Assembly (NCBI GenBank): GCA_034401135.1
Contig: JAWZSP010000008.1
Location: forward strand, 3,038,001 to 3,102,000
DNA: 64,000 bases
Reading direction: 5' to 3'
Source of the DNA: Volutella citrinella
Taxonomy: Eukaryota; Ascomycota; Sordariomycetes; Hypocreales; Nectriaceae
Shown piece after piece: positions 16,378 to 61,815 of this stretch (the stretch's first letter is position 1; each line of letters opens with the position of its first letter). The translations under genes were made by a program, and so were the position numbers. The notes below the pieces were generated by a model. It was not told where the DNA came from. It searched no databases and saw only the letters and a list, made by a program, of their open reading frames with translations.

Positions 16378-17580
16378 CTATCTGTTCTTGGCCAGGTCAC
16401 GAGCCCACACGATCTCGTCCCGCTCCCAGACAAATGTCAGTGCCGATGCTATCGGCCCAAGAACCAGCACACGTAGAATAATCTCAGACCATCCTCTGAA
16501 ACCAAGCTTTGCAAATTCATGATGGAGCTCATTTTCGTCCCTGGCGTGAACAGCAAGACGGATCACGAGTCCCCAGATGACATAGGCTATGCCGGAAAGT
16601 ATGTAGTCCCACTGCATGAAGATATGGACACCTTCTGCAACACTCGTGACGGCAGTCTCACGAAATGGCAATGTCGGAATGAAGATCTGGCCTGGTACAA
16701 GGCTAGATGCATAGCGTTCATTCAGTAACCCGGGAACCAGAAGTGCCGATGCTGATACCGAAACGGTATATAAATGAGAACCTGCGCCGATTAACAGACC
16801 CACTGCATAGACCGATCGCAAGAGATTGATTTCATCCTTGCTCTTGACTCTGCGATTGCCTGTCCTGCGAGCATAGTATGCCCGCGCGGCAACCAGGACA
16901 CCATGGCTGAACACTGGGAAGGCTAGCCACAATGCGATCGTGTTAATTTTGAATGTCGAGCTAATGACAGTGGGGGCGGGCAACACTGCAATAACTGTGA
17001 AAAGCACGTATCCCACCAGAACAACCGAAGGGGTTGCTTGCAGTGAGGCGTAGTCTTGTGCCCTAATTGACGCGCTGCTAGGGCTGAAGATGGTGCCTGC
17101 ATGCGACAAGTGGTAACACAGGTAGAATGGTATCACAGTTGCAAAGCCGTGCATCTGGATTATGATACCAAGAGTTGTTGCGCTATTTTCCGGTGAGCTT
17201 TTGGTCTGCAAGACGGATTGATAATGGATAACCCACGTTGGGACGGCAGCATTGCCACTTCGGCTGGCCTCTACTAATGCTAAGATATAGGTTGCGACGA
17301 ATCCGCCAGCAAATGGAATGTTGGCAAGTGACACTTGGGTTGTGTTGCCATCCATTATTACCCAGAAGAACGTCACAAGGCCCTTGATGACGACATCAAT
17401 AGGCCAGATGCCCGTGAACCTGCCTCCGAATGGTGTTCCGTCTGGTAAGATATCGGCGCGAATGACTGACCAGACTTCCCATAGGAGCCCGTTGCGAACA
17501 GCGAAGTAGTAAAGCGCATAGTATGCGAAGAGCCAGATGAGGATGAGACCCGCTCGAAAGATGTACAGACCCTGAGCCAT
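16378..17580 (-). CDS. Polytopic membrane protein, AscI-family terpene-cyclase-like
   Basis: A single exon of 400 residues from the ATG at 17578-17580 (MAQGLYIFRAG). The longer in-frame extension to 17691 lacks hydrophobic character. There are about eight hydrophobic helices. The conserved-looking stretch LPDGTPFGGRFTGIWPID followed by an aromatic-rich helix (FFWVIMDG) resembles the membrane-bound AscI-type proteins of fungal meroterpenoid clusters, where some members cyclise farnesylated substrates. Many members of the wider family have no known function, so cyclase activity is an inference. It is divergently transcribed from the BVMO at 18.1 kb. The shared spacer carries both motif families found across the cluster, so the two are probably co-expressed. 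Confidence 0.65.
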   Translation of the reverse strand: MAQGLYIFRAGLILIWLFAYYALYYFAVRNGLLWEVWSVIRADILPDGTPFGGRFTGIWPIDVVIKGLVTFFWVIMDGNTTQVSLANIPFAGGFVATYILALVEASRSGNAAVPTWVIHYQSVLQTKSSPENSATTLGIIIQMHGFATVIPFYLCYHLSHAGTIFSPSSASIRAQDYASLQATPSVVLVGYVLFTVIAVLPAPTVISSTFKINTIALWLAFPVFSHGVLVAARAYYARRTGNRRVKSKDEINLLRSVYAVGLLIGAGSHLYTVSVSASALLVPGLLNERYASSLVPGQIFIPTLPFRETAVTSVAEGVHIFMQWDYILSGIAYVIWGLVIRLAVHARDENELHHEFAKLGFRGWSEIILRVLVLGPIASALTFVWERDEIVWARDLAKNR

Positions 17581-17790: not shown

Positions 17791-17806
17791 GAACCCGAGC
17801 CCGAGC
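17791..17806 (+). promoter_or_regulatory. CCG-N3-CCG site in a bidirectional promoter
   Basis: GAACCCGAGCCCGAGC places CCG at 17795 and 17801, between the AscI-like gene (start 17580, minus) and the BVMO (start 18132, plus). It is a two-unit version of the array seen elsewhere. Confidence 0.5.
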
Positions 17807-17872: not shown

Positions 17873-18131
17873 ATGCTTTGTTGCCACCCTCCCCAAATGC
17901 CTTTGACTTGTCCTTGAAGCACCGGGTTGTGAACAGCGTCTGTGCTTATTGGGGTGGTGCAGTCTGAAGTGCTCGTCAGTGCCGGCAGCAGAGGTGCCCT
18001 CATGCTCAAATGTAGTATAAATGAAACAATAAGAACAAGAAGAATCCGGGATGACGAATACACATGTCCGTATCTCATCCATCAATTCACCAAAAACACA
18101 ACTGAACGCCGCCCCCACAATCACCAGAATG

Positions 18132-19703
18132 CACTCCAAGCCTGCCCCCACGGCTGATTCGAGCCCTGACTTCGACGCGATTATCGTTGGAGCCGGCTTC
18201 GTTGGTTGCCATCTTCTGTACAGCCTTCGCGCCTCCGGTTTTCGATGCCTAGCTATTGATGAAGCCCCAGAGATTGGTGGAGTCTGGTACTGGAACTGTT
18301 ATCCCGGTGCCCGTGTCGACTCCAGAGTTCCAATCTATGAGTATTCCAACCGGCTACTCTGGAAAGATTGGACCTGGAAGCAGAGATATCCGTCCCGCGA
18401 TGAAGTTTGTGGGTACTTTGAACATGTCGAGAGGAAGCTGCACTTGAAGAAGGACATGCTCTTGGGAACACGAGTTAATTCGGCTGCCTGGAATGATGAC
18501 GCTGGAACTTGGTCTGTCAGCTCCAGCGATGGAGTTACGCGAACTTCAAAGTTTCTCCTGCTCAGTACTGGGTTCGCGGCCAAGGCGTACATACCCAACA
18601 TCAAGGGTCTCGACCTCTTTCATGGTCTGGCTTGCCATACCAGCAGATGGCCCCAGGGCGGTATCGATTGTGACAACAAGCGGATCGGAGTCATCGGAAA
18701 CGGTTCAAGCGGTCTCCAGGTCATCCAGGAGCTTGGCCCCAAGGCCAAATCGTTGACAGTCTTCCAGCGAAGCCCTACGTGCGCTCTCCCGATGGGACAG
18801 GAGAATTTGGAAGCCAAGGACCAATCGTCGAACAAGGACTCCTACCCCGATATCTACAAACAACGCAAACAAACCTTTGGAGGGGTAGACTTCACATTCC
18901 TACCTTATCTTGGAGCTGATGCAACTCCCGAGGAGAGAGCTGCCAAATTCGAAAAGATTTGGAAAAATGGGGGCCTTTCGTTTTGGCTCGGCACTTACGT
19001 TGATGTCCTGAGAGATGCGACCATCAATGCCGAAGCCTATCATTTCTGGCGAAGCAAGGTGCTACCACGGATCAAAGATCCCAAGAAGGCAAAGATTCTT
19101 GCGCCCGAGAAGCAGCCATATCTCTTTGGCACCAAGAGGGCAACACTAGAGCAGCGTCTATATGAAGTCTACAACCAAGACAACGTGAACATTGTTGACA
19201 CCAAGGCCAACCCAATCGCCGAGGCCACCGCCTCAGGACTCAAGCTCCAGGATGGCGAGATTCATGATCTCGATGTCATTGTCTTCGGCACTGGCTTCGA
19301 CTCCATCACCGGGCCCCTTCTGGCCATTGACATCAAAGGCAAGAAGAACAAAACACTCCAGGAGCATTGGGGTAACGGAACCAAGACTCAACTGGGTCTC
19401 ATGGCAGCTGGGTTCCCGAACATGATCATCTTGTACGGTCCTCACGGTCCTACATCCTTCTGCAACGGGCCTACCTGCGCTGAAATGTACGCGGAATGGG
19501 TTCTGGATACACTGCTCCACATGAGAGCCAACGAGATTGATCGCATCGACACGACCGAAGAAGCCGAGGCGAGATGGAAGGAGACTATCAACGCAATTGG
19601 CAATGCTACCCTGATACCCCAGACGGACTCTGAGTACATGGGGAGCAACATTCCGGGCAAGGTTCGAGAGTGCCTTAACTTCCTTGGCGGGTTTCCAGAG
19701 TAA
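18132..19703 (+). CDS. Flavin Baeyer-Villiger-type monooxygenase
   Basis: A single exon, 523 residues from ATG 18132 (MHSKPAPTADSSPDFDAIIV); the in-frame ATG at 18051 would give 550. FAD-binding GAGFVG comes near the start. The Baeyer-Villiger fingerprint FxGxxxHxxxWP is present as FHGLACHTSRWP, followed by the NADPH-binding motif GNGSSG, then FGTGFDSITG near the C-terminal third. This is the cyclohexanone-monooxygenase class: it inserts oxygen next to a ketone to give an ester or lactone, using FAD, NADPH and O2. The substrate is unknown. Neighbouring SDRs could supply the ketone. Its promoter is shared with the AscI-like gene. Confidence 0.92.
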   Translation, partial: HSKPAPTADSSPDFDAIIVGAGFVGCHLLYSLRASGFRCLAIDEAPEIGGVWYWNCYPGARVDSRVPIYEYSNRLLWKDWTWKQRYPSRDEVCGYFEHVERKLHLKKDMLLGTRVNSAAWNDDAGTWSVSSSDGVTRTSKFLLLSTGFAAKAYIPNIKGLDLFHGLACHTSRWPQGGIDCDNKRIGVIGNGSSGLQVIQELGPKAKSLTVFQRSPTCALPMGQENLEAKDQSSNKDSYPDIYKQRKQTFGGVDFTFLPYLGADATPEERAAKFEKIWKNGGLSFWLGTYVDVLRDATINAEAYHFWRSKVLPRIKDPKKAKILAPEKQPYLFGTKRATLEQRLYEVYNQDNVNIVDTKANPIAEATASGLKLQDGEIHDLDVIVFGTGFDSITGPLLAIDIKGKKNKTLQEHWGNGTKTQLGLMAAGFPNMIILYGPHGPTSFCNGPTCAEMYAEWVLDTLLHMRANEIDRIDTTEEAEARWKETINAIGNATLIPQTDSEYMGSNIPGKVRECLNFLGGFPE

Positions 19704-19901: not shown

Positions 19902-20567
19902 CTACCCTGTTTGTGCTGACTGCTCGATCACGTCTATCAGAGCCCCGCCTTGGAGCGTCTTCATATGTCTTGAATTGATTACAATGTCCTCACCAAAGTA
20001 GGCCGAGTAAGCCCCTAGGCCGTCTTCTTTGAACTCAGGGCCCCATTCAAATGGACCAGAGACAAGCGAGAAGGCTTTTGAATCGTCAATATGAAGACTG
20101 CGGCGGACCTCAGCTCGGAGCTCCGTTATTGTCATGTCCACCACGGCTTCTGGTGGGCGCACAAAGTACAGCACCTCTCGACCTCTCTTGTTGACTCTCA
20201 GACGCTCCACGTCAGATGGTTCACGTCGCTTCCAGCCCCTCCTGTCTTCATTCCCAGGATCCAGTGCTTCCGGTACCAATACAAAACTCTCTCGTTCCTG
20301 AATGAACGACGTTCGAGAGAAGCACAGTCCAAACTCAGGTGTCGTTGGAGGAATTGGACAAAGTTCAAGCTTGCAACCAGTGAACAGGCAGGTGTTTCCA
20401 ATATTTTCCGATGGGTTCATGGTTCGAAGCCAGCCTAAATCTGCTGAGCGACCTAATGTAGGGACCAGGCGCACAATTGCATTGTGTAGTTCCCTGCGCA
20501 CCGGGCATTTGTGTGTCCATTCCATGCGAGAGTTCCTACCAAACTCGGAGAAGACACAATTCTTCAT
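19902..20567 (-). CDS. Uncharacterised protein, 221 residues
   Basis: An open frame of 221 codons from ATG 20567 with no stop and no need for introns. The family was not recognised. There is no signal peptide or membrane helix. The C-terminal half looks folded (VLYFVRPPEAVVDMTITEL, LVSGPFEWGPEF, YFGEDIVI), with a basic segment around KRREPSDVERLRVNKRGRE. The antisense strand also carries shorter open frames, so coding status is probable rather than certain. It is divergent from the SDR at 21.1 kb, and the spacer contains TACCCCA/TGGGGTA sites, so it may be a member of the cluster. Confidence 0.5.
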   Translation of the reverse strand: MKNCVFSEFGRNSRMEWTHKCPVRRELHNAIVRLVPTLGRSADLGWLRTMNPSENIGNTCLFTGCKLELCPIPPTTPEFGLCFSRTSFIQERESFVLVPEALDPGNEDRRGWKRREPSDVERLRVNKRGREVLYFVRPPEAVVDMTITELRAEVRRSLHIDDSKAFSLVSGPFEWGPEFKEDGLGAYSAYFGEDIVINSRHMKTLQGGALIDVIEQSAQTG

Positions 20568-20836: not shown

Positions 20837-20919
20837 TACCCCAATCCAGGTGGGGTAGTTCTTGAAGCCGAGCCCACTGACCCCATCAAGCCCATGCCGC
20901 ACTGACTGGTACTGGGGTA
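20837..20919 (+). promoter_or_regulatory. TACCCCA-N7-TGGGGTA pair plus a third TGGGGTA
   Basis: TACCCCA 20837-20843, TGGGGTA 20851-20857 and TGGGGTA 20913-20919 lie 170-250 bp upstream of the SDR at 21089 and 270-350 bp upstream of the orphan gene at 20567. A single GAAGCCGAGCCC half-array (20864-20875) sits between them. Confidence 0.55.
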
Positions 20920-21088: not shown

Positions 21089-22086
21089 ATGTCGGACAAG
21101 GCCTACATTGTCACCGGGGCTGCCGGCGGTATCGGCAACGAAATAGTACGTAATCTCGTTCAGAAGCAAAATGCCAACGTCATCGCCACCGATATCGTTG
21201 AAGGGCCCTTGAGCACCCAAAAGGAAACTTACGGCAAGAAGCTCATTGTCATCGTCGGAGATATTGTCGATGTCAGTTCGAATTTCTACTGCCCCTTTCA
21301 CCATTGACACCCGTTGGCTAAACTTGACTCACCAACCAGCCCGCCCTGTCCGAAGCATGCGTCAAGGCGGCGATTGACAACTTTGGGCGCCTTGACGGGG
21401 TTTCGCTTACCGCTGGCGTTTTCGGGAGTTGCTACAGGCTTGCTGATGCATCGGTCGACAAATGGAAGCGAGGGTTTGACATCAATGTCTTTGCACACCT
21501 GAATGCTGTCGGTTTTGCACTTTTACCTCTTACTCGCAACCGACTGACATCGTCCAGCTTCGCTTCGCTCTCCCCGAGCTGCGCAAGACAAAGGGCTGTG
21601 TCGTGGCTGCTACTTCTGGGGCAGGTGATGCCGCCCTGTTTTCTGGATGGGGATTCTATGGCGCGTCCAAAGCAGCTGTCGGTTTCCTAATCAAGCAGAT
21701 TCATCTCGAGGAGCCGCACGTTACGGCAGTTGGTATCTCTCCGGGATTGTGTGATACCAAGATGATTGATGGGTTGAGAAGTGGCAAGAGTAGGCTTGCG
21801 GGTCCCTAATAATGTAAGGATGCCATCGCTGACTTGACCGTTCGCAGCCGAAGGGTGGACCGATGAAGATGTCGCATCGTATGAGGATTTTGTGTCAAAG
21901 ATTGAGATGGTCACTCCAGAGATTGCCGCAAACTCCTATGCTCAGTGCCTCACCAAAGGCTCGCGCGAGCTCTCTGGGCTCATCATTGATTACGATGATG
22001 CACGCCTGCCCATCGAAGATAAGCTAAAGAGAAAGGACACGATGGAGCGCCGGTCCTATACACAGTACTCGGACCAAGCTAGTTGA
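21089..22086 (+). CDS. Short-chain dehydrogenase/reductase (SDR)
   Basis: Four exons (21089-21271, 21340-21507, 21558-21789, 21848-22086) give 273 residues. Cofactor motif TGAAGGIG, an acidic TDIV at the end of beta-2 favouring NAD, a catalytic Ser within ATSGAGDAALF, YGASKAA with Tyr and Lys, and SPGLCDTKM are present. It is more distant from the two SDRs at 10-12 kb and has different intron positions. NNAG is replaced by LTAG. The substrate is unknown. The promoter carries three TGGGGTA-type sites. Confidence 0.9.
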
Positions 22087-22545: not shown

Positions 22546-23097
22546 CTATCCCACCTTGGAAATTTGGTAGCTAATCTCAATCTTGGCCCCCTCCACGAGC
22601 GTCTTAGCCTTCCCCGCAGCAATGAAGACGGCACTGTTGACCCAACCAAACTCCTTTGATCGACTGTAGATCCTCGGCGTCATGTAGAGATACTCTTCTC
22701 CAAAGTCGAAGCTGGCTCCAGCAACACCACTAAACACCTCAGTCGTCCCTGGTGTCATGGTAAACTTGCCCAGGTAATGCATGTCCAGATTGATACCACC
22801 AGGGCCAATAGAGCCCATTCTCGCATCTACCGTTGCTGTGTTTTGGCCCTGGCCCAGGCCCATCCAGTCAGATATGGACTTGATCTCAAACCTGGTCTTT
22901 CCGTCGACAGTCTCTACATATCCACTGTCTCCTGAAGTTCATTTTGTCAGTCTTGTACCTGGACTTGGATTAATGTAGAGCAACGAACCGTCGACTACGG
23001 TGAGATCAGAAAATTCATTACCGGGTCCCATTCCATTCGGGATGGACACCTGCACGTAGACGTTGAAGACGGGTGTCAGCTTGAGATAAGAGGCCAT
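22546..23097 (-). CDS. DUF3237-family-like small protein
   Basis: Two exons, 22989-23097 and 22546-22931, with a 57-bp intron carrying a CTGAC branch site, give 164 residues. The pattern fits the DUF3237 beta-barrel family: an N-terminal strand (LKLTPVFNVYVQV), GPGNEF with a short hydrophilic centre, DARMGSIGPGG, and a C-terminal 'YMTPRIYSRSKEFGWVNSAV' followed by a final strand ending ISYQISKV. There is no signal peptide. Family members turn up beside biosynthetic or catabolic genes in fungi and bacteria, but their reaction is mostly unknown. Upstream are a 12-bp tandem repeat rich in GGGG/CCCC and a three-unit CCG array. Confidence 0.65.
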
Positions 23098-23330: not shown

Positions 23331-23350
23331 CCCGAAGCCGAAGCCGAAAC
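23331..23350 (+). promoter_or_regulatory. CCG array, three units (CCCGAAGCCGAAGCCGAAAC)
   Basis: CCG at 23332, 23338 and 23344, 235-255 bp upstream of the minus-strand DUF3237-like start. It has the same 6-bp period as the arrays at 13.27, 28.57, 31.51 and 37.96 kb. Confidence 0.6.
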
Positions 23351-24642: not shown

Positions 24643-25236
24643 ATGACCCAATTAATTCCAACCTACAACACGCCTAGTCCCGTCATGCCGCCTCAGAGCT
24701 TGGCACATGTCGTTCTTCGAACAGCAGACCTTGGCAAGATGCGCGACTTCTATACCCAGTTCGTTGGTGGCCGGGTGACTTACGGAAATGAAATGATTTC
24801 ATTCATCACATTTGATCATGAGCATCACAGAATTGCCCTCATCGGCATCCCGGATACCGCACCCAAGGCGAAGAATAGCTGCGGACTGGAGCATATCGCC
24901 TTCACCTTCTCGAGCCTGGCAGATCTTCTCAACGCCTATCTGCAGCGCAAGTCTCGCGGGATCGAACCGGTATGGTTTGTGAACCATGGCCCTACCACTA
25001 GCATCTATTACAAGGACCCCGATGGCAATATGCTGGAGACGCAGGTCGACAACTTTGAGACAGTTGAGGAAGCAACCGAGTTCATGCTGAGCGACGCGTT
25101 CAGTGAGAATCCGATCGGGACGGATTTTGATCCACAGGAGCTCATAGATGCTCTCAACAGCGGGGAACCTGAAGCAGAGCTCAAGAAGAGGCGCGAGATT
25201 GGCCCTCGTGGCATGCCGGATTTGGGTGCTATGTAA
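24643..25236 (+). CDS. VOC-superfamily (extradiol dioxygenase/glyoxalase-like) protein
   Basis: A single exon, 197 residues. A vicinal-oxygen-chelate fold is indicated by SLAHVVLRTADLGKMRDFYT at the start, then GLEHIAFTFSSL and a final strand with YYKDPDGNMLETQVD. The three metal-ligand positions expected of the superfamily are present: His in LAHVVL, His in GLEHIA and Glu in NMLETQ. The sequence resembles fungal proteins labelled biphenyl-2,3-diol 1,2-dioxygenase III-like, which would open a catechol ring beside the two hydroxyls. Other VOC activities such as isomerase or lyase cannot be excluded. The C-terminal tail (about 50 residues) is acidic. With the FAD aromatic hydroxylase at 29-31 kb it could form a hydroxylate-then-cleave pair. 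Confidence 0.85.
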   Translation: MTQLIPTYNTPSPVMPPQSLAHVVLRTADLGKMRDFYTQFVGGRVTYGNEMISFITFDHEHHRIALIGIPDTAPKAKNSCGLEHIAFTFSSLADLLNAYLQRKSRGIEPVWFVNHGPTTSIYYKDPDGNMLETQVDNFETVEEATEFMLSDAFSENPIGTDFDPQELIDALNSGEPEAELKKRREIGPRGMPDLGAM

Positions 25237-25535: not shown

Positions 25536-28306
25536 TTAAATGTTTTCACTATCATCTATGGCCGCCATCGTCCAGGTTTGCATGCCAATGTTGCTCAATC
25601 CATTAAGCCAACACTCGGAAAGCATATCAGGGCCCTCTCCATATGACCCACCAGAGGGGAAGGAGTCGCGAAAATGAGAACACAGGCTCTCGTCTTGGCT
25701 TATAGTTTGAGGTACTGATTCCTGGGCATGTATATCGTCTTGAAACCCCGGTCTGTCGTTTGATGTCAACATCGCGTCAGGTGACAGCTGACCAAATGGT
25801 GTTTTGGGAAAAGACGGCGGGCTGCACAACTCAATGACTTCATCTTCGTCGTTGTCGTCGTCTTCTGGAGTGGACGTGGAGGCTATTTCGACAGCATTCA
25901 ACTGCTCAAGATTGTATCTGGGTGAGGGAAGCTGAGCTGAGAAGCTTTCTCCTCGAAGACGTGCTTCCAAACTCGCGAAAAGTGCCTGGTCTGGGGCTCG
26001 TCTCTTCCCTAGAATAATATCAATGGCGAGTGCTAGATGCAAGTACCTCGCAGCACTAGATTCAACTCGAGGGGAATCACTTGTGGCGCGGATGGATACA
26101 AGTAATGGCGACGAGGATTTTTCTTCGCTGACCTCGGCGATCATTGCTTTGACCCAGCTAGTGCCCTCGTATTGGCGCTCGTATATGTTCATGGCCTTGC
26201 GGAGAATGCTGAGCCTGTGCTTGGGGAGATCCAAGTCGAATACAACCGGCGACTGCGGAAGGGGCATGATCTCGACATCAAAGATATGCAGCAGGAGAGG
26301 CAAGGCAGTGCAGGAAACGGCACTGATCGGAAGCCATCGCGCCAATCCAAGCCTTAGCAAATTATCCAGACACTCGATGGTGCCCAGAGAGGCGTCCCAT
26401 AGAGCTGAATAGCTATTGCGTGGTAGTGTGGCGTTGGCGTAGTCTGTGTTCAATGGAGTACCCATGCTTATTAGATGCAGCTTGTAGTGGCCCAGGGCGA
26501 GCTTGGCCGAACTGGTAGCCGAAAGAGATCCGGTCAGCAAACTTGTCATCCATAGAAAGCTGATAGGATGGGCGCACTCACTAGTAGTAGATCTTCATCA
26601 GGGTACTGTAAAGAATGACTGAGTCATGATATCCATCGCTTTGGGATATTGCGGAGGGCGAAATGTTGAACTTGACGAGGCGTCTGTTCGCCTCTGTATG
26701 CCAAATCCGAAGGGCAGCTTCGCAGCTATGGAGAAGCTGCCAGTCTTTGATACTTAAATCGTTTCTCCCAAGCCTTTCTTCAACGGGGTAAGTCAAGGGA
26801 AGGATATCTGTGAGTACAATGCAAAGCTTCATGAGCAACTCAAAGACAACGGCCAAATGGAATTTGGTCCCGAGATCGTGAACCCTGCTTCGGTGGAACT
26901 CGTCAGAAAGATCATCAAGTCCAAGGCATGCATCAAGGCTAACATCAAACTGGTCACGGCCGATCTGGATGCTGCGGCGAGTCATTAGGCCAAGCATGCG
27001 GTCACGAAGAACGCAACACCACCACAACCGCCGGAGTGTGGATCGCTTGCGGGGTGACGCGTCCAGCTGCCGGTATCGATGAGCATCTGCGTCCCTAGCA
27101 TGCCCTATCGCGATTGTGAGCCATGGGGTCCTGGTCTTTTGCGGAATGTTTGAGCCAGGAAATGACCACGAGGCAAGGAGCAGAGCTGCCTGGGATCTGA
27201 TAATGTCGCATGACTCAGTGTCAAAGTCAAAGAGGACTTTAGCCCGCCCGTAGAAACATGCCCTGGCTTGTTGGGTGTTGTCAAACCCCAGTTGCTTCAG
27301 TGTTGACTGGGAGACAAACTGTGCAAAGTGCAAAGTTCAAAGTTAACAAGAATGCCAGTCTGGATGAAGTATGGGGATACTGACATTTGAGCATACGAAA
27401 AGAATGGATTGGAACACGAGTGGAGATACTTCATCTCCCTCGCCGCATTTTCCGGAGCAGTCGTAATAAGTATCACCAAAGTCTCCCTCGTTGAGTATAG
27501 GAAGGAGTGGGTGCATGTGAAGAAAGTACTGCTCAATGAATTCGTCAAGGTACTTTCGGGCGGGGATGTGTAGACAGCCTTGTATGACGAGAAACTCGAA
27601 TGTTTGACGTGGAAGGGCAGACAAGTTGCCAGCCTTCAGGAATGGATAAGTTGAGTACAGAACGTAAGGCGATGAAGCGCTGGGCCGAGGCTTGTCCTCC
27701 ATGCCACTCTTCTCAGCCCAACCATCGAGATCGATGATATGGGACCCGGTGAAGGGTTCCGACCCAGGTCTTAGGGTATTGCTTGTGTGAGATTTCGGCA
27801 ATGGCTCTGGCAGAGGCTTTGGGGAGGCGTTGGGGGACGACTGCAGAGCCTGCTGCTCGGAGCCATTCTGCCCGCGTGCATGCTGCGTCTCGCTTGGTGA
27901 TCGTTTGCTGACGTGGATCGTTTCTGCTATGGCTGCGATGCTCATGCTATGATTCTGATTGGTATTATCGGATGGGCCTGGTGCAGATGTCGATGTTTGC
28001 CTGGGTCTCGAGGTCCGCGGTGGCACGTTGTGATGTTTGATGCTGCAGAAACAATTGGTTAGCACCTTGTTCGAGGAACCATGGGCATGTCGTCCACAGG
28101 CTTAGTTACCGAAGTCTCTGCGGCTTCCTCTTTAGGACTTCACATTTGACTTCATCCAGTCGACAATTCATGCACGGACCGTCGACAGAAGGATGACATC
28201 TGACCTTGCGTGCACGGCATCTGAGGCAGGCGTTGGGAATGCGCTTGCGTACTGGTCGCTTTTGCGGAGCGCAGAGCACCACGGGCAGCTGTGCATCTTC
28301 CGACAT
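25536..28306 (-). CDS. Zn(II)2Cys6 transcription factor, CTF1-like
   Basis: Minus-strand, at least four exons. The first (about 28114-28306) holds the zinc cluster ACLRCRARKVRCHPS with CMNC and a final Cys. A 60-bp-class intron leads to IKHHNVPPR. The next exon carries a Ser/Pro-rich linker, SALPRQTFEFLVIQGCLHIP and the start of the middle domain. Further exons near 26588-27310 and 25536-26540 complete fungal_trans (LWWCCVLRDRMLGLMTRRS) and an acidic C-terminal tail. Total is roughly 800 residues. It is paralogous to the regulator at 1.4-4.2 kb. The position inside the cluster and a three-unit CCG array in its own promoter make it the best candidate for the pathway-specific regulator, possibly self-regulated. 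This is inference. Confidence 0.87.
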
Positions 28307-28931
28307 TGCGCAGAGGGCAAGAATGGCGCTGATGTCAATGCCGGGCTTCTCTGAACAAGATGTGGTGTTGCAATACTATCAGTTGGGAGCCGAAATGAGT
28401 CGTCTCTAGATTAGGGCCGACAGAGTGGGTTTCTTGAATCCAGGTATGATAATGGTAAATGGTCAGGTTGGTGCGTGTTAGCCGCCGTTCAAGACTTGGG
28501 TGTTTTCCCCAGTTGTTCGCGCAGGTCGCATGCGGTGCGAGAAAACAGGCCCCCTCCAGTTCTGAGCCCGAACCCGAGCCCGGTTGGCGTATCGACTAGT
28601 GCCGTCCCTACCCCGGACCCGACATGCCCAATGCGGGGGGAACCCTGGCTGTGAAGCCAGCAAGTGGCCGAATAAATCGCATGGAGTGGATAACGCACAG
28701 GAATCTGCTGGTCCCTGATAGGTTTGTCGCCGCTTCTGTGTCAGGGGCTTCTCGCCATTGTCGCTGCCATCCTGAGCTGCTACGTTTGTGCTTGCCGGTG
28801 TCTCTACTCTTTAATCGCTAGTGGTAGGCTCTCGTTTCTTGGTAGCCAAACTGCATGTTGGGAGGAAACGTAGAAGGCATTTAGAGAACACATCAAGGAT
28901 AGTATTGAAGCTCACAGTACATTCTTCGGAC
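28307..28931. other. Promoter region of the second CTF1-like gene
   Basis: No gene recognised. It contains the CCG array at 28564-28583 and the 3' flank of the minus-strand FAD monooxygenase. Confidence 0.6.
28564..28583 (+). promoter_or_regulatory. CCG array, three units (GAGCCCGAACCCGAGCCCGG)
   Basis: CCG at 28568, 28574 and 28580, 260-280 bp upstream of the Zn2Cys6 regulator start at 28306. Confidence 0.6.
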
Positions 28932-30848
28932 CTAATGCTGGAAGACACCCATCTTATCCAAGACAAAGTCATCCACTTGAGTGATTTGCTTTTCAGTGGT
29001 GCCGAATGACTGTCCCTTCTCTGCTGTCTTGATGCCTTCAGGCTGCACTTGCAACTCAAGTCTGCCGGTCACAGTCTGAAGCACTCTTTCAGCAGCCGCA
29101 GCCGAGTCCAGTCCATCACCCCTCCAAGCAACGTGATGGTCTGGTCGTACAAGAACAAGCTTGCGCTGGTACAGTTCCTTTGCATGTCGCTCATGTGCGA
29201 GAGCGACCTGGGTCACCGTAACACCAAGTCGTTCTGTAGCTGAACCGAGGAGCTGCTGCCCAACTTCTTCGTTGCTAAAGACAAGTAAACACCAATTCTT
29301 GCCAAAGAGGTCGAAAATTGCCTTGCCGTCGCTTAGGAAGACGTGTGGTGCTCGGCTGCCCGGCCAGGTCGAAGGCACATAGTGTCGTGGATTCCACGCA
29401 GGCTGCTCACCGTCGCTGTCTTGCCGGCTGATGACGCAAGATTCGTATCGGTAGCCCATTTCAATACCAAAGTCCTTGTTCTCTCCGTCATTCTTCTGGT
29501 AGTGCTCATGAACCTGACCCCGAAGGCGTCTCCCTGCTTCGCTGTCCTCATCCAGAAGACGGGGATCGTTGCCATCCAAGATATCCTTCAGCTTGAGATG
29601 CACATCGAAGTGAACTCCAGAGTGAACAACATTGCGGACTGCCACTGGCTTCCGCTCTTCCTCGTAAGACTTAAGTAGCCCGACCCCAGATTGCTGATTG
29701 ATGACTGAGGCAAGCTTCCAGCCCAAGTCAAAGGCGTCGCCGATGCCCATGTTCATACCATAGCCACCAGTGGGGATATTTTGATGGGCTGCATCACCAG
29801 CCAGAAACACGCGAAGCTTTGGGCTGGCCCAGGTCCTCGCCACCGCAATGTTGGGCCTCCAGATGGAGCGGACTAGGATCTCATCGATCTTGATTGTGTA
29901 GCCGCCGTACAAACCGCCCAGGACTCGATAGACGGCCTCCTCGGAGCCGATCTTTTCTGGTTCCGCATCAAGGGGCATAAACAAGTGAGTAGTCCAAGTA
30001 TCCTTTTCGTCCTGCGCAATGATGCATGCCTCAAATCCTCCAGATTCGCCAAGCAGGAAAATATGCCAGAACCTTCCTTGCTTGTGGAGGCGTGTCAGGT
30101 CTCGAGACTTGAAATGGACCAGTAGTGCGCATGACGGCCTATTCTCAGGTGTGATTAGTAGGTTGAACTCCGAGCACAATCGAGTGTATCTGTGGACTTG
30201 AGCTTACACCGGCTTGATATCCAAGGGCAAGTGTAGAGACTTGCGAACCCGGCTCGATCCGCCATCGCAGCCGGCGACGTACTCGGAGCGCCAGACTCCG
30301 GTTTCTCCGGTGTCTGAGTTCTTCGTCACAGTGATGACGTGATCTTCCTGTTCCTCCACCGATTCCACCTTGAAACCGTAACGGAGGTCGATGAGCGGAT
30401 CTACATCGCACTTTGCCTTAAGCCACCTCTCAAAGATGGCCTGTGAGATGCGTTGCCAGGGCTCCAAGGGCATAGTGCCATCATTGGTCTCATTGATTTG
30501 TTTCTGGAACTTGTCGACGCCGGGTAGCTGCCAAGAGGTGACACAGGACGAGGCCGAGAGGCCAGTGGAAATCAGGACGTTCTGGTCAATGTCGGCAGGG
30601 ACGCCCTGCTTGCGTAGATCATCCGCCAGATGAAGCCTTCTGAAAAGCTCCATCGACCGCGCGTTGGTAAGGTCCATTTTCGGCCAACTAGTGGTTGTCT
30701 TGTTTCTCTCGAAAAGGATTGACTTGACTCCATAAAAGGACAACACCGTGGCGAGGATCAGTCCAACAGGGCCACCGCCAGCAATCAGGACCGTTCCCGA
30801 AGGTAGCTGCTGGACCATTCCGCTAGTGTTTGGCTGGCTAACAACCAT
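28932..30848 (-). CDS. FAD-dependent aromatic hydroxylase (PheA/TfdB family)
   Basis: Two exons (30208-30848 and 28932-30138) give 615 residues. All three flavin-site motifs of the family are visible: GGGPVGL near residue 25, the DG motif (AGCDGGSSRVRKSL), and the GD motif (FLAGDAAHQNIPTGGYGMN). The C-terminal part, about 170 residues, has the thioredoxin-like extension of phenol-hydroxylase-type enzymes. It would hydroxylate a phenol or similar ring with NAD(P)H and O2. There is no signal peptide, so it is probably cytosolic. A TGGGGTA (30861-30867) lies directly before the start codon. The long spacer to E1-beta holds a six-unit CCG array, which could serve both genes. Confidence 0.92.
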
Positions 30849-32174
30849 CTTGGCTCGTGTTGGGGTACAAAGACAATGGCGTTACACAGTTGGTGAAGAA
30901 CAAGTGTACTGAGTGTGTCGGTGAAACTTTGCTTGGTGCAGGAAGCGTGCCAACGTGACTTTTAATGAGAGCATGAGAGGTCATGTAGCCCGTCGCCCAA
31001 CACCTACTCAGCCTCGGACGAAAGCTTGCGCAAGCCGTGGGCAGTGGGATGACCTGGATGAAATTTGGGGCACCTCGGAAACCAATCCGGTGTGCGGATC
31101 ACGGATTGGCCCCCCGAGTGACAGAGAGAAGCGCACGCTGCGCCAATGACCGTGCCATTGCTGCGGGTGCTGGCGAGAATAACAAGATGCTACGCGATAT
31201 GTGCCTACGGCTATTTGGTATTCTATCTGCGCTGGCCGAGGCCGTGGGATCTCTATCAAGAGCAGCATTTTAGTTGGTACGGCATTGGTTAACTACCGGT
31301 AGGGCTGTTAGGCCCGTTCAGGTTCCTTCAACTCTCCCAAAGTTGTGTAGAGTATACACCGGCTTGCGTTGTGGAAACTAGCTCTAATGTGTTCTCACCA
31401 AGTGTGGCTAAGTGTAAATTGCCCATCAGCAAGCTTCAGCTGGCGCGTTTAGCCATGTGTGAGTTGTGTACCTTGTAATGGTGGGCAGCCCTTTCAACTC
31501 CGGCTTCAGCCCGAACCCGAACCCGCGACCCCGAAGCCGAGCCCGCAAAGCCTAGGCTCCACCCGCTTTGAACCCGGAGGCTTCAAACACCCCTACCAAT
31601 CCTGGGTCCAAAACTCCCCCCCCCCTCCCCAGGATCCAGGTCATTCACTCGGTCTAGTTCGATTGATCTGCCCTAGTGAACAGGGTCAGGGCGCAGCCAC
31701 CACGGCTTAACGCGAAACTTCATGTAACCGTGTCTGGGGCTGGGGATATTGTACTTCGGGCGCTTTGGGCGGCCCCCCTTTCGTCCTCCTGCAGTGTGAA
31801 AGATGCCGAGGCATGCGAAGTCCTCGAACTTGGACCTGCCACCTCGTACCAGGCCTTCGGTAGCGGCTACACACGGTTTTATCCATGATGACTCTATCCA
31901 TCCCGACCTGGGCCGCCAGTCTCCGCACCTCGCTCTATGTTCGGCTTGTCAAGGGACTGCTCACGCTAGTCCTGTAGGCAAGCTCATGATCTGAAGGAAG
32001 GCTGGCCCCACACTTGGGCGTCTGCTTTGGGACAGCTTTTCTTTTGTGCCTTGATGAGTCTTGGATAATCCCAAAGCCTCCAAGTCTTGACTGTACTGAT
32101 CGCGGATTGGCATATGAACTTGAAGTTTTCAGTGCAACTACGGGATTTTCCAGCTCCAACACCTTACGTCAACA
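30849..32174. other. Long spacer between hydroxylase and E1-beta
   Basis: About 1.3 kb without a recognisable gene. It contains TGGGGTA at 30861, a C-rich run near 31617-31637, and the six-CCG array at 31510-31546. Overlapping frames on both strands in 31.4-32.2 kb have no domain and are composition-driven. Confidence 0.6.
31510..31546 (+). promoter_or_regulatory. Six-CCG array between FAD hydroxylase and E1-beta
   Basis: CCG occurs at 31511, 31517, 31523, 31531, 31537 and 31543: two blocks of three at 6-bp period, separated by 8 bp. It is the longest array in the window. It lies about 660 bp from the hydroxylase start and 630 bp from the E1-beta start. Confidence 0.65.
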
Positions 32175-33406
32175 ATGGCGGCCCGCTTGCGATTCCCGAG
32201 AGGCCGGATAGGCAACATCAGGTACTATTCTTCTACCGGTTCTCAACCAACTACGCGTAGACTGAACTTACCAACAAATTTTGCGACCACGCCGATATTG
32301 CATCATGACAGGGACTCTCTGCTCCAGTCCTCGGAGCTGCCCGGAAGTGGTCCATCGACAAGGTTGAATCTGTTCCAGGCCGTCAATTCGGCCCTTCAGA
32401 CTGCACTGAAGACATCGAACCGAGTCCTGTGTTTTGGCGAAGACGTTGGCTTCGGCGGGGTCTTCAGATGTACGACTGGTCTCCAAGAGGAATTCGGCAC
32501 GGATCGCGTCTTCAACACCCCAATTACTGAACAAGGCATTGTGGGCACCGCCATTGGCATGGCTGCAGAGGGCATGAAGCCAGTCGTTGAGATCCAGTTC
32601 GCCGACTACGTCTTCCCCGCCTTTGACCAGATCGTCAACGAGGCAGCCAAGTTCCGCTACCGAGAAGGCACAACTGGTGCGAACTTGGGTGGCCTGGTTA
32701 TCCGGATGCCTTGTGGAGGCGTTGGTCACGGCGCTTTGTGAGCTTCGCCAACCACCCCCGTCCTGCGACAAGTAATGAACTGACATTTACCAGATATCAC
32801 ACCCAATCACCCGAGGCCCTCTTCTGCCATGTTCCTGGATTCCGAGTCGTCGTCCCCCGGTCCCCGTCACAAGCAAAGGGGCTCCTTCTATCTGCGATAT
32901 TGGAATCTCCCGATCCAGTTATTTTCATGGAGCCCAAGATCTTATACAGAGCTGCGGCAGAAGAAGTCTTCGATGAACTTTACACTCTTCCAATAGGCAA
33001 GGCTGAGATTGTGAAGCCCGGCAAAGACCTCACAATAATCTCCTACGGACGGCCCTTGTACACCTGCTACGATGCAATTAAAGCGGCAGAGGCGAAACAC
33101 CCGGGTCTCCAAGTCGAACTCATTGACCTTCGTACTATATACCCATGGGACAGACAGACAGTACTAGAGAGCGTCAGACGGACTGGGAGAGCCATGATCG
33201 TGCACGAGAGCATGGTCAACTATGGCGTGGGCTCGGAGCTAGCCGCAACAATCCAGGAACAAGCTCTGTACAGTCTCAAGGCTCCTGTGCGTAGGATCGC
33301 CGGATGGACTACCCACACTGGACTGACGTATGAGAAGTACATCTTTCCAGATGTTGCCAGTATGCATCCCACCAACGCTTCGATAACAATAACATTTGAT
33401 GACTGA
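32175..33406 (+). CDS. 2-oxoacid dehydrogenase E1 beta subunit (branched-chain type)
   Basis: Two exons (32175-32737 and 32794-33406) give 391 residues. The first ~25 residues ([20 protein letters not shown]) are Arg-rich without acids, a typical mitochondrial targeting sequence. [30 protein letters not shown] and [19 protein letters not shown] are hallmarks of BCKDH E1-beta rather than pyruvate dehydrogenase. [14 protein letters not shown] follows the splice. It pairs with E1-alpha to form the thiamine-diphosphate E1 that decarboxylates 2-oxo acids and passes the acyl group to E2. It converges on E1-alpha. No defect is seen. The length matches the family. Confidence 0.95.
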
Positions 33407-33826
33407 CACAGCACATAGGAATCTACGATGGAATACTGGAACTTATTGACACCGAGGAATAGAGGGGGATGACTTGGTGTCTCGTAATAGATAGATTTGG
33501 TAATTCAATTTCGTTGCCTCCAATCGAGCGCCTAGCAACAGTCGAAGCCGTGGTGTTATTGTAAATTGGTCATTCTCTTGCCCTTCCGCTCCTTTCTCTT
33601 CTCCCTGCAGTAAGATGAAATAATTGGTATCGCCGACTAAGTAAGCAAATGGCGGGCAACCTGGCCACTTCTGAAGCGATGATGGTGGGTGGACGGTAGT
33701 TAGCCATCATGGCCTCAGCAGCTGCCTCACTCAGTTTGGAGCCTGTCTCACTTCTAGCTTGGACAATTCAGGCTGTTTTAGTGCAAAACTTCCAATCACA
33801 TTCTATCTCTAGAAATAACAGAATAT
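33407..33826. other. Intergenic, convergent ends of E1-beta and E1-alpha
   Basis: 420 bp between two stop codons. Nothing further is seen; presumably 3' untranslated regions. Confidence 0.6.
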
Positions 33827-35453
33827 CTATAGGCCCTTGATTCCTTCGATGTGTTGATCAATGTCATACTCCTCTGGGTACTTCAGCATCAATCGCTTGA
33901 GCTCATCGCGTTGACTCTCAGCCTCCTCAGTAACAGTAGCGTAAACATCGTCGAAAATGGATCTCAACGCCGGCTTTTTCTCACTCTCAGCATCCCTCAG
34001 TTCCCTGATGATATCTTTCCGTATCTGGGTTCGGGCTTCCTTGTCCAAATCCTCGTCCCACACGCCTTCATGCTGAAGCCATTGGAAAAGCCTGGAAATG
34101 GGGTTACGCTCGGAGGACTTCCAATATGCCACGTCCTCTGCACTGCGATAGGCTGTGCTGTCGTCACTAGTGCTGTGGTGCGAGATTCGATAGCTCATGA
34201 ACTCGAGAAGGATAGGCCGCCCACCCCCTTCGAGGGCTTTGCGTCGCGCTATTTTAGTCGCCTCGTAGACGGCGAAGATGTCAGTTCCGTCTACCCGGAT
34301 CGATTCAATCCCATAACCAGGACCCCGGCTTGCGATACCGTCTCCCTTGTACTGTTGAGAAGCGGGAGTTGAGATGGCGAATCCATTGTTTCGGCAAATG
34401 AACAGTACTGGGCTGTTGATTACAGCAGCCACGTTGAGAGCACCGTGAAAGTCACCTTCGCTTGCAGCGCCTTCACCGAAGTAAGCTGCTGCTACACGGG
34501 GAGCCGAGTTCGGGTCCTCCCTGTCCTGCATCTTCAAGGCGTAACCGGCCCCTACCGCATGAGGGATCTGCGTTCCGAGAGTCGAAGCCACAGCGTGCTG
34601 GAGGCAGTCGTCGATTAGTGTGACGACCTCTTCCGGGACACAATTTGGGCCTCCGTCTACTTACGACTCCTACTTTGGCCTTGCCACTAAAGTGAACGGG
34701 CATGTTGCGTCCCTTGCCCGGGTCATTGTGGTTGGCAGCTAGTTGGCTCATGAAGTCCTTCAGCTCAAACCCGCGCTGCAAGAAAACACCATGCTCTCTG
34801 TACTGTGTCGTGATGATATCATTTGGACCAAGAGCAGCGGCTGAGCCAACCATTAGTGCTTCCTCCCCAGCAGACACCTAATTTTGGGAATAAGCCATTG
34901 ATTTATTGCCTACTCCGTTGATTTGGGAAAAGAATGATTCTCACCATGTAGAAGCTTATTCTCCCATGTCTCTGGGCATCAAACATGATGCTGTCCATGA
35001 TGTTGACTTGACAGCTCGGTTGTTAACAGCGCACCCCAGGTGATAGGCATTACTCTCCAGGGGCGGCGACGTACCGGTGAGCATATGCTTGTACCATTGC
35101 AGAACCTCACTAGCCGGGATCTCGGTAGCGTGCGGTGTGTTTGGCGCAATTTTGTTTTCGTCGTTCAAGATGCGAAACGTCGGGATCCTCGGCGCGTCCG
35201 ATGGCAAGTCCCATTGCATTTCATACGTGAATGGGCTGTCGATTGCGCCTGGGAAACGAGGAGCTCTAATATTTCAGGAAATTTAGTTTCGCCCTGTCGG
35301 AGAGTTTGCCTGGTTGGTCTTGAGGAGGCCGTAGACTCACGCAGCAGAAACTGTAGAATTCCACCTCGACGAGAGTTGTCGAGCGCGGAGCAATCTGGCA
35401 CTCCTCAGCTGCTGGCCAAGGCCGGCCCGGTTCCAATAACGAGAGATGTTCAT
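33827..35453 (-). CDS. 2-oxoacid dehydrogenase E1 alpha subunit (branched-chain type)
   Basis: Five exons (35341-35453, 35075-35265, 34945-35006, 34665-34877, 33827-34597) sum to exactly 450 codons. The start at 35453 was chosen because it alone gives an Arg-rich, mitochondrial-type leader (MNISRYWNRAGLGQQLRS) that joins in phase to the conserved APRFPGA. Other landmarks are QRHGRISFYM, QYREHGVFLQRGFEL, the thiamine-diphosphate motif beginning GEGAASEGD and ending in NN (CRNNGFAIST), and the phosphorylation loop ISHHSTSDDSTAYRS that in BCKDH is the kinase-regulated serine segment. It is the decarboxylase half of E1 in the mitochondrial matrix. It is divergent from E2 across a 392-bp shared promoter. 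No damage is seen. Confidence 0.95.
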
Positions 35454-35845
35454 TTAGGCTAGATGGGGTCCGAATTGTATGCAGAGTGCTAGGGAACGAC
35501 GGCTTGTCGTAGTTATCTGTGCCCTTGGGCCTTGATTCTGCCACTTGGGGTACTGTCCCCATCTTCCTATCGCATTGTCACCCGCATCCGAGGCAGCGGT
35601 TATTGTCGGTTGTGATCTCCTGGGCATGACGGCATGGCTTTCCATTGGCCGGGGCCGAAACCGGGGTCCAGTCCGAGGTTCAAAGTGGCCGGCCTCGCAT
35701 GAACCCTTGCATTGCTCGGAGGGGGCTTCTCCGGCCTCCGGGGACCTGTCATGCTTTCTTTAAATTATCATCACTATTAATGATTTTTAGATGCCGTTCA
35801 TGCTCTGTGGAGAGTCTTGCATACGACTATCAAAGCTTGGGTATC
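35454..35845. promoter_or_regulatory. Bidirectional promoter E1-alpha / E2
   Basis: 392 bp separate the two start codons. It holds TGGGGTA at 35546-35552, overlapping TACTGTCCCCA, and a GGCCGAAACCGG element near 35653-35663 with two CCG triplets spaced 7 bp apart, a looser version of the cluster array. A shared promoter would keep two subunits of one complex in step. Confidence 0.5.
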
Positions 35846-37519
35846 ATGTCTTGCTTACGGCAGTCCATGAGGCTCACTACGTGGACGCGAACTTCACTTC
35901 GGCCGGTCCGGCATCTCTCCGGTCCCCTCTCAATTCGAAATCGGCAGTTTACCAGCACGGCACTGGTGCTCGGGACGAAGCCATTTGTCCTTGCAGACAT
36001 TGGTGAAGGTCAGTTACAGCCGAACTAGTAAAAAAGGCAAGGCCGCTGAATATCGATAGGAATAACGGAATGTCAGGTCGTTTCATGGCTTGTCAAAGTT
36101 GGGGATCAGGTGCAAGAATTTGACCCTATTTGCGAAGTGCAGTCCGATAAAGCGTCGGTCGAGGTATAATCTCCTAAGCCATGATGCAATATCATGCTTG
36201 TGTCTCACCGTTGCCAAGATCACATCTAGATTCGATGGCCGCGTAGAGAGGCTTCACTACGAGCCAGGTGACATGGCAAAAGTCGGCTTAGTACGTCCTT
36301 CTGTTCCTATAACCCCTGAGATGAATGAAAAACTAACCTAAGTCGCCATTAGCCACTGCTGGATATCGACGTTGAAGGCGAAGAAGAGCCGAAGACAGTG
36401 GAACATGCCAAGCCGATTTCCTCAGACGATGACGCCAACGTCAAGGCCTCCCTACGCGACCCGACCGACGCACAACAAGGCCAAGATAGCCACCACTCGT
36501 GGAACCCAAAGAGTATGGAGATTGGAACCAATACTCTACGTGCTTATCAAGATCAAACAAGCCCAGCGTTGGTTTCACCTGCCGTTCGACGTATTCTCAA
36601 GCAAAACAACATCGACTTTGGTGATGTGAACGGCACAGGCAAAGGCCAACGGATACTGAAATCAGATGTACAGAAGGTCATCGAAGCTCGTCTACGTGGT
36701 CAAATTTCTGACTCCAGTTCTACGTCGCCAGCAAACGGCTGGCATTTGAAGACGGGTGAAGCATCTGGAGATCGTCAAGTAACATTATCCCCGATACAGC
36801 AACAAATGGTCAAGTCAATGACGCAAGCATTGACTATTCCGCACTTTCTCTACACCCAGAATGTAGACTTGTCAAAAATAATGCATTTTCGCAAACAGGT
36901 CATGAATGACCGGCTATTGGCGAGTCAGCTGCAAAACGAGGACGGGAGCATCGTCAAACTGACTGCGCTTCCGTTTCTACTCAAATCTCTGTCCATGGCT
37001 GTGGCCAATTTCCCCTCGCTGAACTCGACGTTGATTATGGCCAAAGATGGCGACGGCATCGAGCTTACGGTCAAAGCCGCGCACAATTTCGGGCTCGCCG
37101 TGGATACTCCCCGCGGGTTGCTGGTCCCGGTTATCCGCGACGTGCAGCAACATTCAGTAGTTTCTCTGGCAAAGGAGATTTCTCGGCTGAGCCAACTAGC
37201 CAAAGACGGGAAGCTCAAGCCAGAGGATATGCAAGGCGCAACGTTGGTCATCAGCAATATTGGTAGCATTGGCGGCCAGGTTGTGGCACCAGTCATCTTA
37301 CCACCAACAACTACTATTGTGGCCATTGGCAAAATCGAGCCCACACCCGCGTATGGCCTTGATGGGGATGGGAAGGACGTGATTGTCAAGAAAATGCAGG
37401 CTACACTCAGCGTGAGCGCTGATCACCGCGTACATGACGGCGCGACAGTGGCACGGTGGGTGCAAGAGGTGGCACTGTACCTAGAGGATCTGGGATCGAT
37501 GGCTATCTATCTATCCTAG
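35846..37519 (+). CDS. 2-oxoacid dehydrogenase E2, dihydrolipoamide acyltransferase
   Basis: Four exons (35846-36008, 36060-36163, 36219-36290, 36353-37519) give 501 residues. A mitochondrial leader ([20 protein letters not shown]) is followed by one lipoyl domain with the lipoylated lysine in SDKASVE, a charged linker, and a peripheral-subunit-binding domain ([20 protein letters not shown]). The acyltransferase domain holds the catalytic DHRVHDG near the C-terminus. A single lipoyl domain and [18 protein letters not shown] fit branched-chain E2 (DBT) rather than pyruvate E2. It forms the core that transfers the acyl group to CoA. E3 is not in the window and would be the shared cellular lipoamide dehydrogenase. 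All parts look intact. Confidence 0.95.
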
Positions 37520-38297
37520 GCAAATTGATTGCTCTAATACCAGGGAAATTCGCAGGCACAAAATAGAGACGACGCAATGTTAATAGGGCATACGTCCCAT
37601 CTATCCAAGTTCTATTCCCCGGTATTAGGCGCCATCGCGGGCAAAGCATAGCAGTGCGCTATTCATTCCGTCATTCCCAATGTATTCTTAGTACCTGGCA
37701 CTAAAACGTACACCTACCAGTTCTTCACTCTTTCATGGTCATTTCCAGTGTTCTAAAAGCCACCCTCGTGTATGCACCCCGATGTCATCGTCACTACCCG
37801 ACCCTGCGGTTCAAGGATTTGCGCGCCGCTTTTCCAAATTAAAAAAGAGGTCCCTCCTCTTTTCGGGACTCGGGTAAGATTTCAAGGCCGCGGGCTTCTC
37901 CCTGTAATCAAAGATGTCTCATTGGCAGAAAAAGGCAGCGGGCCAGGGCCACTGTGAGGCCGAACCCGAACCCGTGCAGCCCGCGCGCAGAGCATCAGCT
38001 GCACGCTACCCACCATCCAACACTTTTCTGATCAAGCCGGAACACTAGCTGTTAGTGCGGGGTCGCGAATCCAATCGCACGCCGTCACCCCGCGTTACTA
38101 TGTTGCATTGCATGACAGACGGTGGAATGAGCGCGGCCCCAGCAACGTTCCCAGGGCGTTGCATGTTGCAACCAGCGAAATGTGTTTTAGCTGTAGATCT
38201 ACCAGCATTGCGATTCTCTACAATAAATATAGGGCGTAGCACCACAGGCTACAGACTGACAAACATCAGAAAACCACCCTGCCTTGAACAGATTACA
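37520..38297. other. Promoter region of the first P450
   Basis: 778 bp without a gene. The CCG array at 37960-37974 lies inside, and a TATA-like segment (caataaatata, near 38220) precedes the P450 start by about 75 bp. Confidence 0.55.
37960..37974 (+). promoter_or_regulatory. CCG array, three units (CCGAACCCGAACCCG)
   Basis: CCG at 37960, 37966 and 37972, about 325-340 bp upstream of the P450 start at 38298. Confidence 0.6.
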
Positions 38298-61207: not shown

Positions 61208-61815
61208 CTTGTAGGGGTTAACTGTTGTGGCTGAGTTTGTTAGTACGATTAATCGTCCTTAAAGATAGATGAGATGATCCAAATAGCGTCGACTGCTATA
61301 TATTTACAACTAGACCGATACCTCGTCTTCGAATACATTTTTCGCATAGCAACGAACACGGAGTTCAACGACCACTCGGAGGCGAGGGTAACGCTATTGA
61401 AAGGCCAGGGTCTTCGGTCTATCCTTCCAGTCCGAGACCCGTAGTGGCGCTCCTATCTCCGAGTAGCGAAAATTCGTAAGGGGCAACTCCAGTGTTATAT
61501 TACTAATAGCAGAGTCATGACGATCGCCTGTTTCCCACTTTGCACGTCATTTCCATCCAGACGTCGCCTGATGGACTAAGTCCGTTCCGCCCAGCCGATG
61601 CCATCGTCTAGGGCTGCAGCTATCAGTGCTACTACGCAAATCGTTCAAGCCAAACAACAGCACAAATATTCTACTTCGTTCTGCAGCCTTGATCATCGCA
61701 ATCGCAATATACTTCCGGTCCATGTTAAATGTCTGGCTGGAAACCCTTTCTTCGGACAACGTGCCAGAGACCTTCATCCTTCATGTTGGTCCCTATTTTC
61801 GCCGGCATCCCCGCC
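61208..61815. other. Shared spacer between AKR and questin-oxidase-like gene
   Basis: About 600 bp between divergent starts; no gene or array recognised. Confidence 0.5.

Follow-up and report, generated by a model that had tools for sequence, protein, structure and literature searches.

Central mitochondrial complexes are rarely regarded as belonging to specialised gene clusters in fungi. Bacterial meta-cleavage pathways comprise a hydroxylase, an extradiol dioxygenase, a hydrolase, a hydratase and an aldolase, and extradiol cleavage gives 2-oxo acids. Fungal degradative clusters of the phenol 2-monooxygenase type have been described, in passages that name core genes only (PMC10735191). In Aspergillus terreus on salicylate, genes for E1 and E2 of branched-chain 2-oxoacid dehydrogenase (BCKDH) were extremely expressed and upregulated, and in the excerpts cited here the authors discuss a conversion of 4-hydroxy-2-oxopentanoate to 3-hydroxybutyryl-CoA by BCKDH and leave the question open (PMC7842363). 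We analyzed a stretch of 64,000 nucleotides (C8:3038001-3102000, where C8 is contig JAWZSP010000008.1; hereafter the window) from the genome of Volutella citrinella, which comprises 45.1 Mb in 26 contigs. Three intact BCKDH-type genes, for E1-beta, E1-alpha and E2, lie together within positions 32175-37519 of the window. This trio resembles mitochondrial BCKDH (BCKDHA/BCKDHB/DBT) in having all three subunits, their domains, the E1 catalytic residues and the phosphorylation loop, but it differs in being clustered, in belonging to a separate paralogue clade, in having a motif in common with oxidoreductase genes and in carrying altered residues that adjoin active-site positions.

The exon ends of the trio were set by hand from the sequence and replaced the automatic E1-alpha, E1-beta and E2 models, which had errors in splice sites or starts. 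Each of the nine introns begins with GT and ends with AG, and the frames are open throughout. The initial annotation of this DNA had reported three intact subunit genes, which we confirmed, except that the E1-beta end that it gave (33406) falls in the last intron; the third exon had been missed, and the true end is 33462. E1-alpha matched the Pfam family E1_dh (7e-88), E1-beta matched Transket_pyr (3e-37) and Transketolase_C (3e-33), and E2 has one lipoyl domain, an E3_binding domain and the catalytic 2-oxoacid_dh domain (6e-67). Against solved structures, E1-alpha scored best with a BCKDH/2-oxoisovalerate dehydrogenase chain (387 bits, versus 158 for a chain named pyruvate dehydrogenase [PDH]), and E1-beta gave 374 bits with a BCKDH/2-oxoisovalerate dehydrogenase chain and 272 with a PDH-named one. 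From their entry codes, we take these best solved E1 relatives to be the human enzyme. For E2, the longest matches were PDH E2s (208 bits), with 150 bits for a BCKDH E2 core chain, a list that does not decide by itself; its assignment to the BCKDH type follows from the comparison with nine loci of its own genome, which favours L022, taken as the BCKDH E2 (315 bits; next best, 105). A PDH-type complex was rejected, for the E1 chains by the best solved matches and for E2 by the own-genome comparison. The N-terminal 40 residues of each chain contain seven Arg and no Asp or Glu. Thus, of the mitochondrial-type leaders and key motifs claimed initially, the residues and domains are kept, whereas such Arg-rich, acid-free N-termini are compatible with a mitochondrial leader; the complex is probably mitochondrial.

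Each subunit was found to have another copy elsewhere in the genome, which rejects the possibility that the trio represents the only BCKDH genes and bears out the second set that had been proposed. Of the copies that we take as the canonical BCKDH genes, E1-alpha is located at C8:2159778-2160753 (52-58 % identity with the window protein, in two exon blocks), the canonical E1-beta at C1:1669812-1670321 (best-matching exon; 60 %) and the canonical E2 at C1:3838984-3839706 (40 %), three separate places that are mutually unlinked. Further E1 and E2 genes of this genome were taken for PDH and 2-oxoglutarate dehydrogenase types. The window contains no E3 match, as initially stated; E3-like matches occur on C4 and C3 and, more weakly, on C9 and C1, all under the curated cut-off, and none on C8 (8 of 68 candidates were scored). 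Another linked 2-oxoacid dehydrogenase pair was observed at C7:229337-232655, beside a transporter-like gene. It consists of an E2 of the succinyltransferase type, by inspection, and a second 2-oxoglutarate-dehydrogenase-type E1 that is 56 % identical to the copy on C2.

We compared the trio with homologues from other organisms, using the best 120 of 5736 proteins for E1-alpha and the best 120 of 4221 for E2. Higher scores against the window protein than against its canonical counterpart were obtained for 59 of the 120 listed E1-alpha homologues and 42 of the 120 listed for E2. Trees were built by a quick method with SH-aLRT support, and several of their long branches were flagged. The window E1-alpha grouped in a clade of 57 of the 120 rows, itself included (support 98), and the canonical E1-alpha of the same genome in one of 62 (support 100). 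Similarly, the window E2 belongs to a clade comprising 56 of the 121 rows (support 99), with its canonical counterpart outside; among the matches listed, the latter had its top scores with Metarhizium, Thyridium and Ustilaginoidea proteins. Neither E1-alpha nor E2 of the window thus belongs to the canonical fungal BCKDH orthologue clade. As judged from these trees, the window genes represent an old paralogue lineage of Ascomycota. The genome search and trees that the initial annotation had called for have therefore yielded both second copies and, for E1-alpha and E2, separate paralogue clades.

The residues expected to matter for catalysis were located with the residue numbers of human BCKDH. 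The window E1-alpha keeps the thiamine diphosphate and phosphorylation-loop residues Q112, Y113, R114, S162, E193, R220, N222, H291 and S292, and E1-beta keeps E46, E76, Q98, Y102 and H146. Three substitutions beside conserved active-site positions distinguish the paralogue E1-alpha hits from the canonical ones: F110T (55/56 paralogue hits; F in 59/61 canonical hits), S161A (56/56; S in 60/61) and A165G (46/56; A in 60/61). Relative to the canonical copy, and thus to one sequence only, the window E1-beta carries A49G, L74I, F82T and G83A. These changes are compatible with an altered substrate preference of the paralogue E1.

We then surveyed linkage through homologue searches with E2, E1-alpha and the FAD-dependent ring hydroxylase encoded next to E1-beta; for the canonical genes, the sole control was the V. 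citrinella genome, in which they are unlinked. The E1-alpha and E2 paralogues share a contig, as told by its length, in 19 of the 26 organisms present in both sets (20 pairs, as A. unguis occurs twice). The shared contigs range from 20 kb to 6.5 Mb, and only the short ones prove nearness. The two genes have consecutive locus tags in Zalerion maritima, Pseudogymnoascus sp. 03VT05, A. nanangensis, P. herquei and A. oleicola, whereas their tags differ by two in T. virens FT-333 and Scytalidium lignicola. E1-alpha and E2 distances were correlated over 21 linked pairs including that of the window (Mantel r 0.73; none of 5000 shuffles was as high, the maximum being 0.35), a correlation that partly reflects shared species history. 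Judging from contigs and tags, many ascomycetes have linked E1-alpha and E2 paralogues, and the arrangement is not confined to this genome. The initial annotation had also proposed to look for the trio beside the same partner genes elsewhere, and here the outcome was mixed. The 29 best hydroxylase homologues (P0241-P0269 of 120 listed) include proteins from 18 organisms that also appear in the paralogue sets of E1-alpha or E2, and the hydroxylase shares a contig with one or the other in 8 of them (F. decemcellulare, F. oxysporum f. sp. pisi, P. lividum, Thozetella, F. agapanthi, Thelonectria olida, A. pseudoustus and Capronia epimyces), including contigs of 17.7 and 25.3 kb. In F. decemcellulare, the hydroxylase is tagged FDECE_4991 and E1-alpha FDECE_4993, and NM208_g6859 (hydroxylase, P0282) and NM208_g6858 (E2) are on one 17.7-kb contig. 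A Fulvia fulva protein of 669 aa (P0319) combines a part homologous to the hydroxylase (57 %) with a VOC domain that is 63 % identical to the VOC-family enzyme of the window over 162 residues. It may be a true fusion or the product of adjacent genes merged by annotation; either would link hydroxylase and VOC enzyme.

Shared promoter motifs had been claimed as well. The window contains 11 copies of the motif GARSCCGARSCC, a tandem GARSCC hexamer; they lie between 13.2 and 38.0 kb and outside all gene models. Genome-wide there are 477 copies in 45.1 Mb, or ~0.68 expected per 64 kb; the reversed control pattern is found 530 times in the genome and 3 times in the window. With up to one mismatch, the window has 21 copies, compared with a mean of 4.5 in shuffles, none of 100 being as high. 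Poisson probabilities are 1.8e-10 for the 11 copies and 7e-6 for the seven places, values that are too strong, as the pattern had been derived from the same window. No exact copy is present in either flanking 10 kb. The motif lies in seven intergenic regions, and in five of them a copy is found 205-263 bp from a start codon of our gene models. The claim thus holds for the E1-beta promoter, which has the motif in common with the FAD hydroxylase, the P450 and other neighbours; the promoter between E1-alpha and E2 has no exact copy. All 11 exact copies are on the plus strand regardless of gene direction. The motif-bearing span sets the cluster limits at ~13.2-40.3 kb, and we infer that this cluster of ~27 kb is co-regulated and presumably inducible.

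Table 1. Genes and motif copies of the cluster (window positions; aa, amino acids; BVMO, Baeyer-Villiger monooxygenase; SDR, short-chain dehydrogenase).
Feature	Position	Strand	Remarks
Motif, 2 overlapping copies	13263-13280	+	upstream of C2H2-like gene
Putative C2H2-type regulator (by inspection)	13474-16100	+	incomplete model, approximate end; no Pfam match; motif 205-211 bp upstream
Putative membrane protein (by inspection)	16378-17580	-	400 aa; no Pfam match; motif 211 bp upstream
Motif	17791-17802	+	between membrane protein and BVMO
Type I BVMO	18051-19703	+	550 aa; motif 260 bp upstream
Motif	20864-20875	+	upstream of SDR
SDR	21089-22086	+	motif 225 bp upstream
DUF3237 protein	22546-23097	-	motif 237 bp upstream
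Motif	23334-23345	+	upstream of DUF3237
VOC/glyoxalase-fold enzyme	24643-25236	+	197 aa; H/H/E ligand pattern by inspection
Zn2Cys6 transcription factor	25536-28306	-	mid-model uncertain; motif ~260 bp upstream
Motif, 2 overlapping copies	28564-28581	+	upstream of Zn2Cys6 regulator
FAD aromatic-ring hydroxylase (FAD_binding_3 + Rng_hyd_C)	28932-30848	-	615 aa; adjoins E1-beta
Motif, 2 copies	31513-31544	+	divergent FAD hydroxylase/E1-beta promoter, 642-685 bp from start codons
E1-beta, BCKDH-type	32175-33462	+	390 aa; 3 exons: 32175-32737, 32794-33359, 33419-33462
E1-alpha, BCKDH-type	33827-35453	-	449 aa; 5 exons: 33827-34597, 34665-34877, 34945-35006, 35075-35265, 35341-35453
E2, BCKDH-type	35846-37519	+	501 aa; 4 exons: 35846-36008, 36060-36163, 36219-36290, 36353-37519
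Motif, 2 overlapping copies	37956-37973	+	upstream of P450
Cytochrome P450	38298-40282	+	motif 336-342 bp upstream

The trio thus lies in a region where an aromatic hydroxylase is grouped with other catabolic-type genes, as in fungal degradative clusters (Table 1). The FAD hydroxylase is a class A ring hydroxylase whose best solved matches are RebC and 2,4-dichlorophenol 6-monooxygenase. A 172-aa protein without a Pfam match is encoded at 19902-20420. At the far end of the window, outside the motif-bearing region, there is a gene of the Questin_oxidase family (61783-63058). The 10 kb upstream of the window (L025) prolong the oxidoreductase-rich region with an ABC transporter, an aldehyde dehydrogenase and a P450, all three by inspection, and a zinc alcohol dehydrogenase that was checked against Pfam, and they carry no motif copies.

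The location of the genes and the composition of the cluster suggest, with moderate likelihood, that the trio forms a dedicated BCKDH-type complex in a catabolic cluster, converting a 2-oxo acid of the pathway to an acyl-CoA. The P450, SDR, BVMO, FAD ring hydroxylase and VOC enzyme would open an aromatic or cyclic compound to give, among other products, a 2-oxo acid. E1 would decarboxylate this acid on thiamine diphosphate, the acyl group would pass through the lipoyl arm of E2 to CoA, the lipoyl group would be reoxidised by an E3 encoded elsewhere, and the resulting acyl-CoA would enter beta-oxidation. More tentatively, the preferred substrate might be a short hydroxy- or unsaturated 2-oxo acid from extradiol ring cleavage, made by the FAD hydroxylase and the VOC enzyme. 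An example would be 4-hydroxy-2-oxopentanoate, which is near the 2-oxo acid of leucine in shape.

Several observations weigh against this reading. The motif was defined after the window had been seen, and neither the E1-alpha/E2 promoter nor that of the VOC gene has an exact copy. The VOC enzyme may not be a ring-cleavage dioxygenase, its match to a poorly characterised structure named 'biphenyl-2,3-diol 1,2-dioxygenase III-related' being weak (9e-7). The proposed route is incomplete, as no ring-fission hydrolase, decarboxylase, hydratase, aldolase or FAH-family match was found in the window models, which were scanned wholly or in part. The nearest FAH-family match is at C8:3000334-3001191, ~37 kb upstream of the window; the gene might contribute to ring cleavage, although it lies far off. 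In other fungi, several of the contigs shared by E1-alpha and E2 are megabases long, so that genes on the same contig need not be neighbours, and in Fusarium solani-melongenae the two tags are 119 apart. E1-alpha and E2 are on different contigs in seven organisms (F. decemcellulare, A. pseudoustus, F. poae, P. pancosmium, I. robusta, E. xenobiotica and F. oxysporum f. sp. vasinfectum), some of these cases possibly coming from different strains. The hydroxylase is on another contig in 10 of the 18 organisms. Residue 193 is Asp rather than Glu in 27 of the 56 E1-alpha paralogue hits, and the active site is thus not uniform across the clade. Finally, the BCKDH loci named in the A. terreus study appear from their numbers to be unlinked (PMC7842363).

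Instead, the trio may represent an additional BCKDH isozyme that serves ordinary Val, Leu and Ile catabolism and lies by chance among oxidoreductase genes. The conserved catalytic residues and phosphorylation loop, the closeness of the E1 chains to BCKDH and the incomplete linkage to the hydroxylase are consistent with this. The low identities of E2 (40 %) and E1-alpha (56 %) to the canonical copies, the clade-wide substitutions adjoining conserved residues and the motif that the E1-beta promoter has in common with the hydroxylase, BVMO, SDR and P450 genes argue against it, as does the lack of an acyl-CoA dehydrogenase or an aminotransferase among the window models scanned, a few of which were covered in part, and we regard it as unlikely. 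We hold it less probable still that the complex provides an unusual acyl-CoA starter or acyl group for secondary metabolism, a branch that the initial annotation had left open. P450s, BVMOs, questin-oxidase-like genes and regulators are common in secondary-metabolite clusters, and all are present here. Nevertheless, this branch is weakened because no polyketide synthase or nonribosomal peptide synthetase match was found within ~130 kb of the window. The nearest ketoacyl-synthase match is ~140 kb upstream (C8:2897136-2898061) and the nearest condensation-domain match ~230 kb downstream (C8:3332406), in a search that did not include terpene cyclases and acyltransferases. With backbone-type matches that far away, a secondary-metabolite cluster with a synthase or synthetase of its own was unsupported. 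If the substrate were not a ring-cleavage product but an aromatic or indolic 2-oxo acid, for instance an arylpyruvate, this would suit the aromatic hydroxylase and BVMO neighbours; we consider it improbable, given that the scanned window models include no aminotransferase or amino-acid oxidase and that most active-site residues of the human enzyme are retained.

The dedicated catabolic complex that we favour has partial parallels in described systems. As in the phenol 2-monooxygenase-type clusters, so far as the passages on them go, an FAD ring hydroxylase of that general class is accompanied by regulators, a P450 and dehydrogenases; the difference is that the main text of that paper has no occurrence of 'branched-chain', 'oxoisovalerate' or 'keto acid dehydrogenase' (PMC10735191). 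In the parts of the A. terreus study cited, a BVMO and an SDR adjoin the 3-hydroxyanthranilate cluster of Aspergillus and BCKDH E1 and E2 are induced, but the BCKDH genes are not described there as members of that cluster (PMC7842363). The window cluster has a hydroxylase and a VOC-family enzyme in common with bacterial meta-cleavage, whereas the hydrolase, hydratase and aldolase were not found among the scanned window models; by analogy, a 2-oxoacid dehydrogenase would replace the aldolase. A search of open-licence literature, by titles and abstract openings, found no description of clustered fungal BCKDH, an absence that is weak, and word checks in PMC8283699, PMC10512309 and PMC10735191 found none either. 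What is new is a known complex in a new, recurrent genomic setting.

We speculate that these loci might form a class of ascomycete clusters in which ring cleavage is ended by a paralogous BCKDH complex that turns the 2-oxo acid into an acyl-CoA, and not by an aldolase as in bacteria, with F110T and S161A tuning the enzyme for a hydroxylated or unsaturated 2-oxo acid. If true, 'redundant' BCKDH annotations in many ascomycetes would mark an unstudied catabolic route, and three genes and a small set of 2-oxo acids would suffice to test how fungi complete extradiol ring cleavage.

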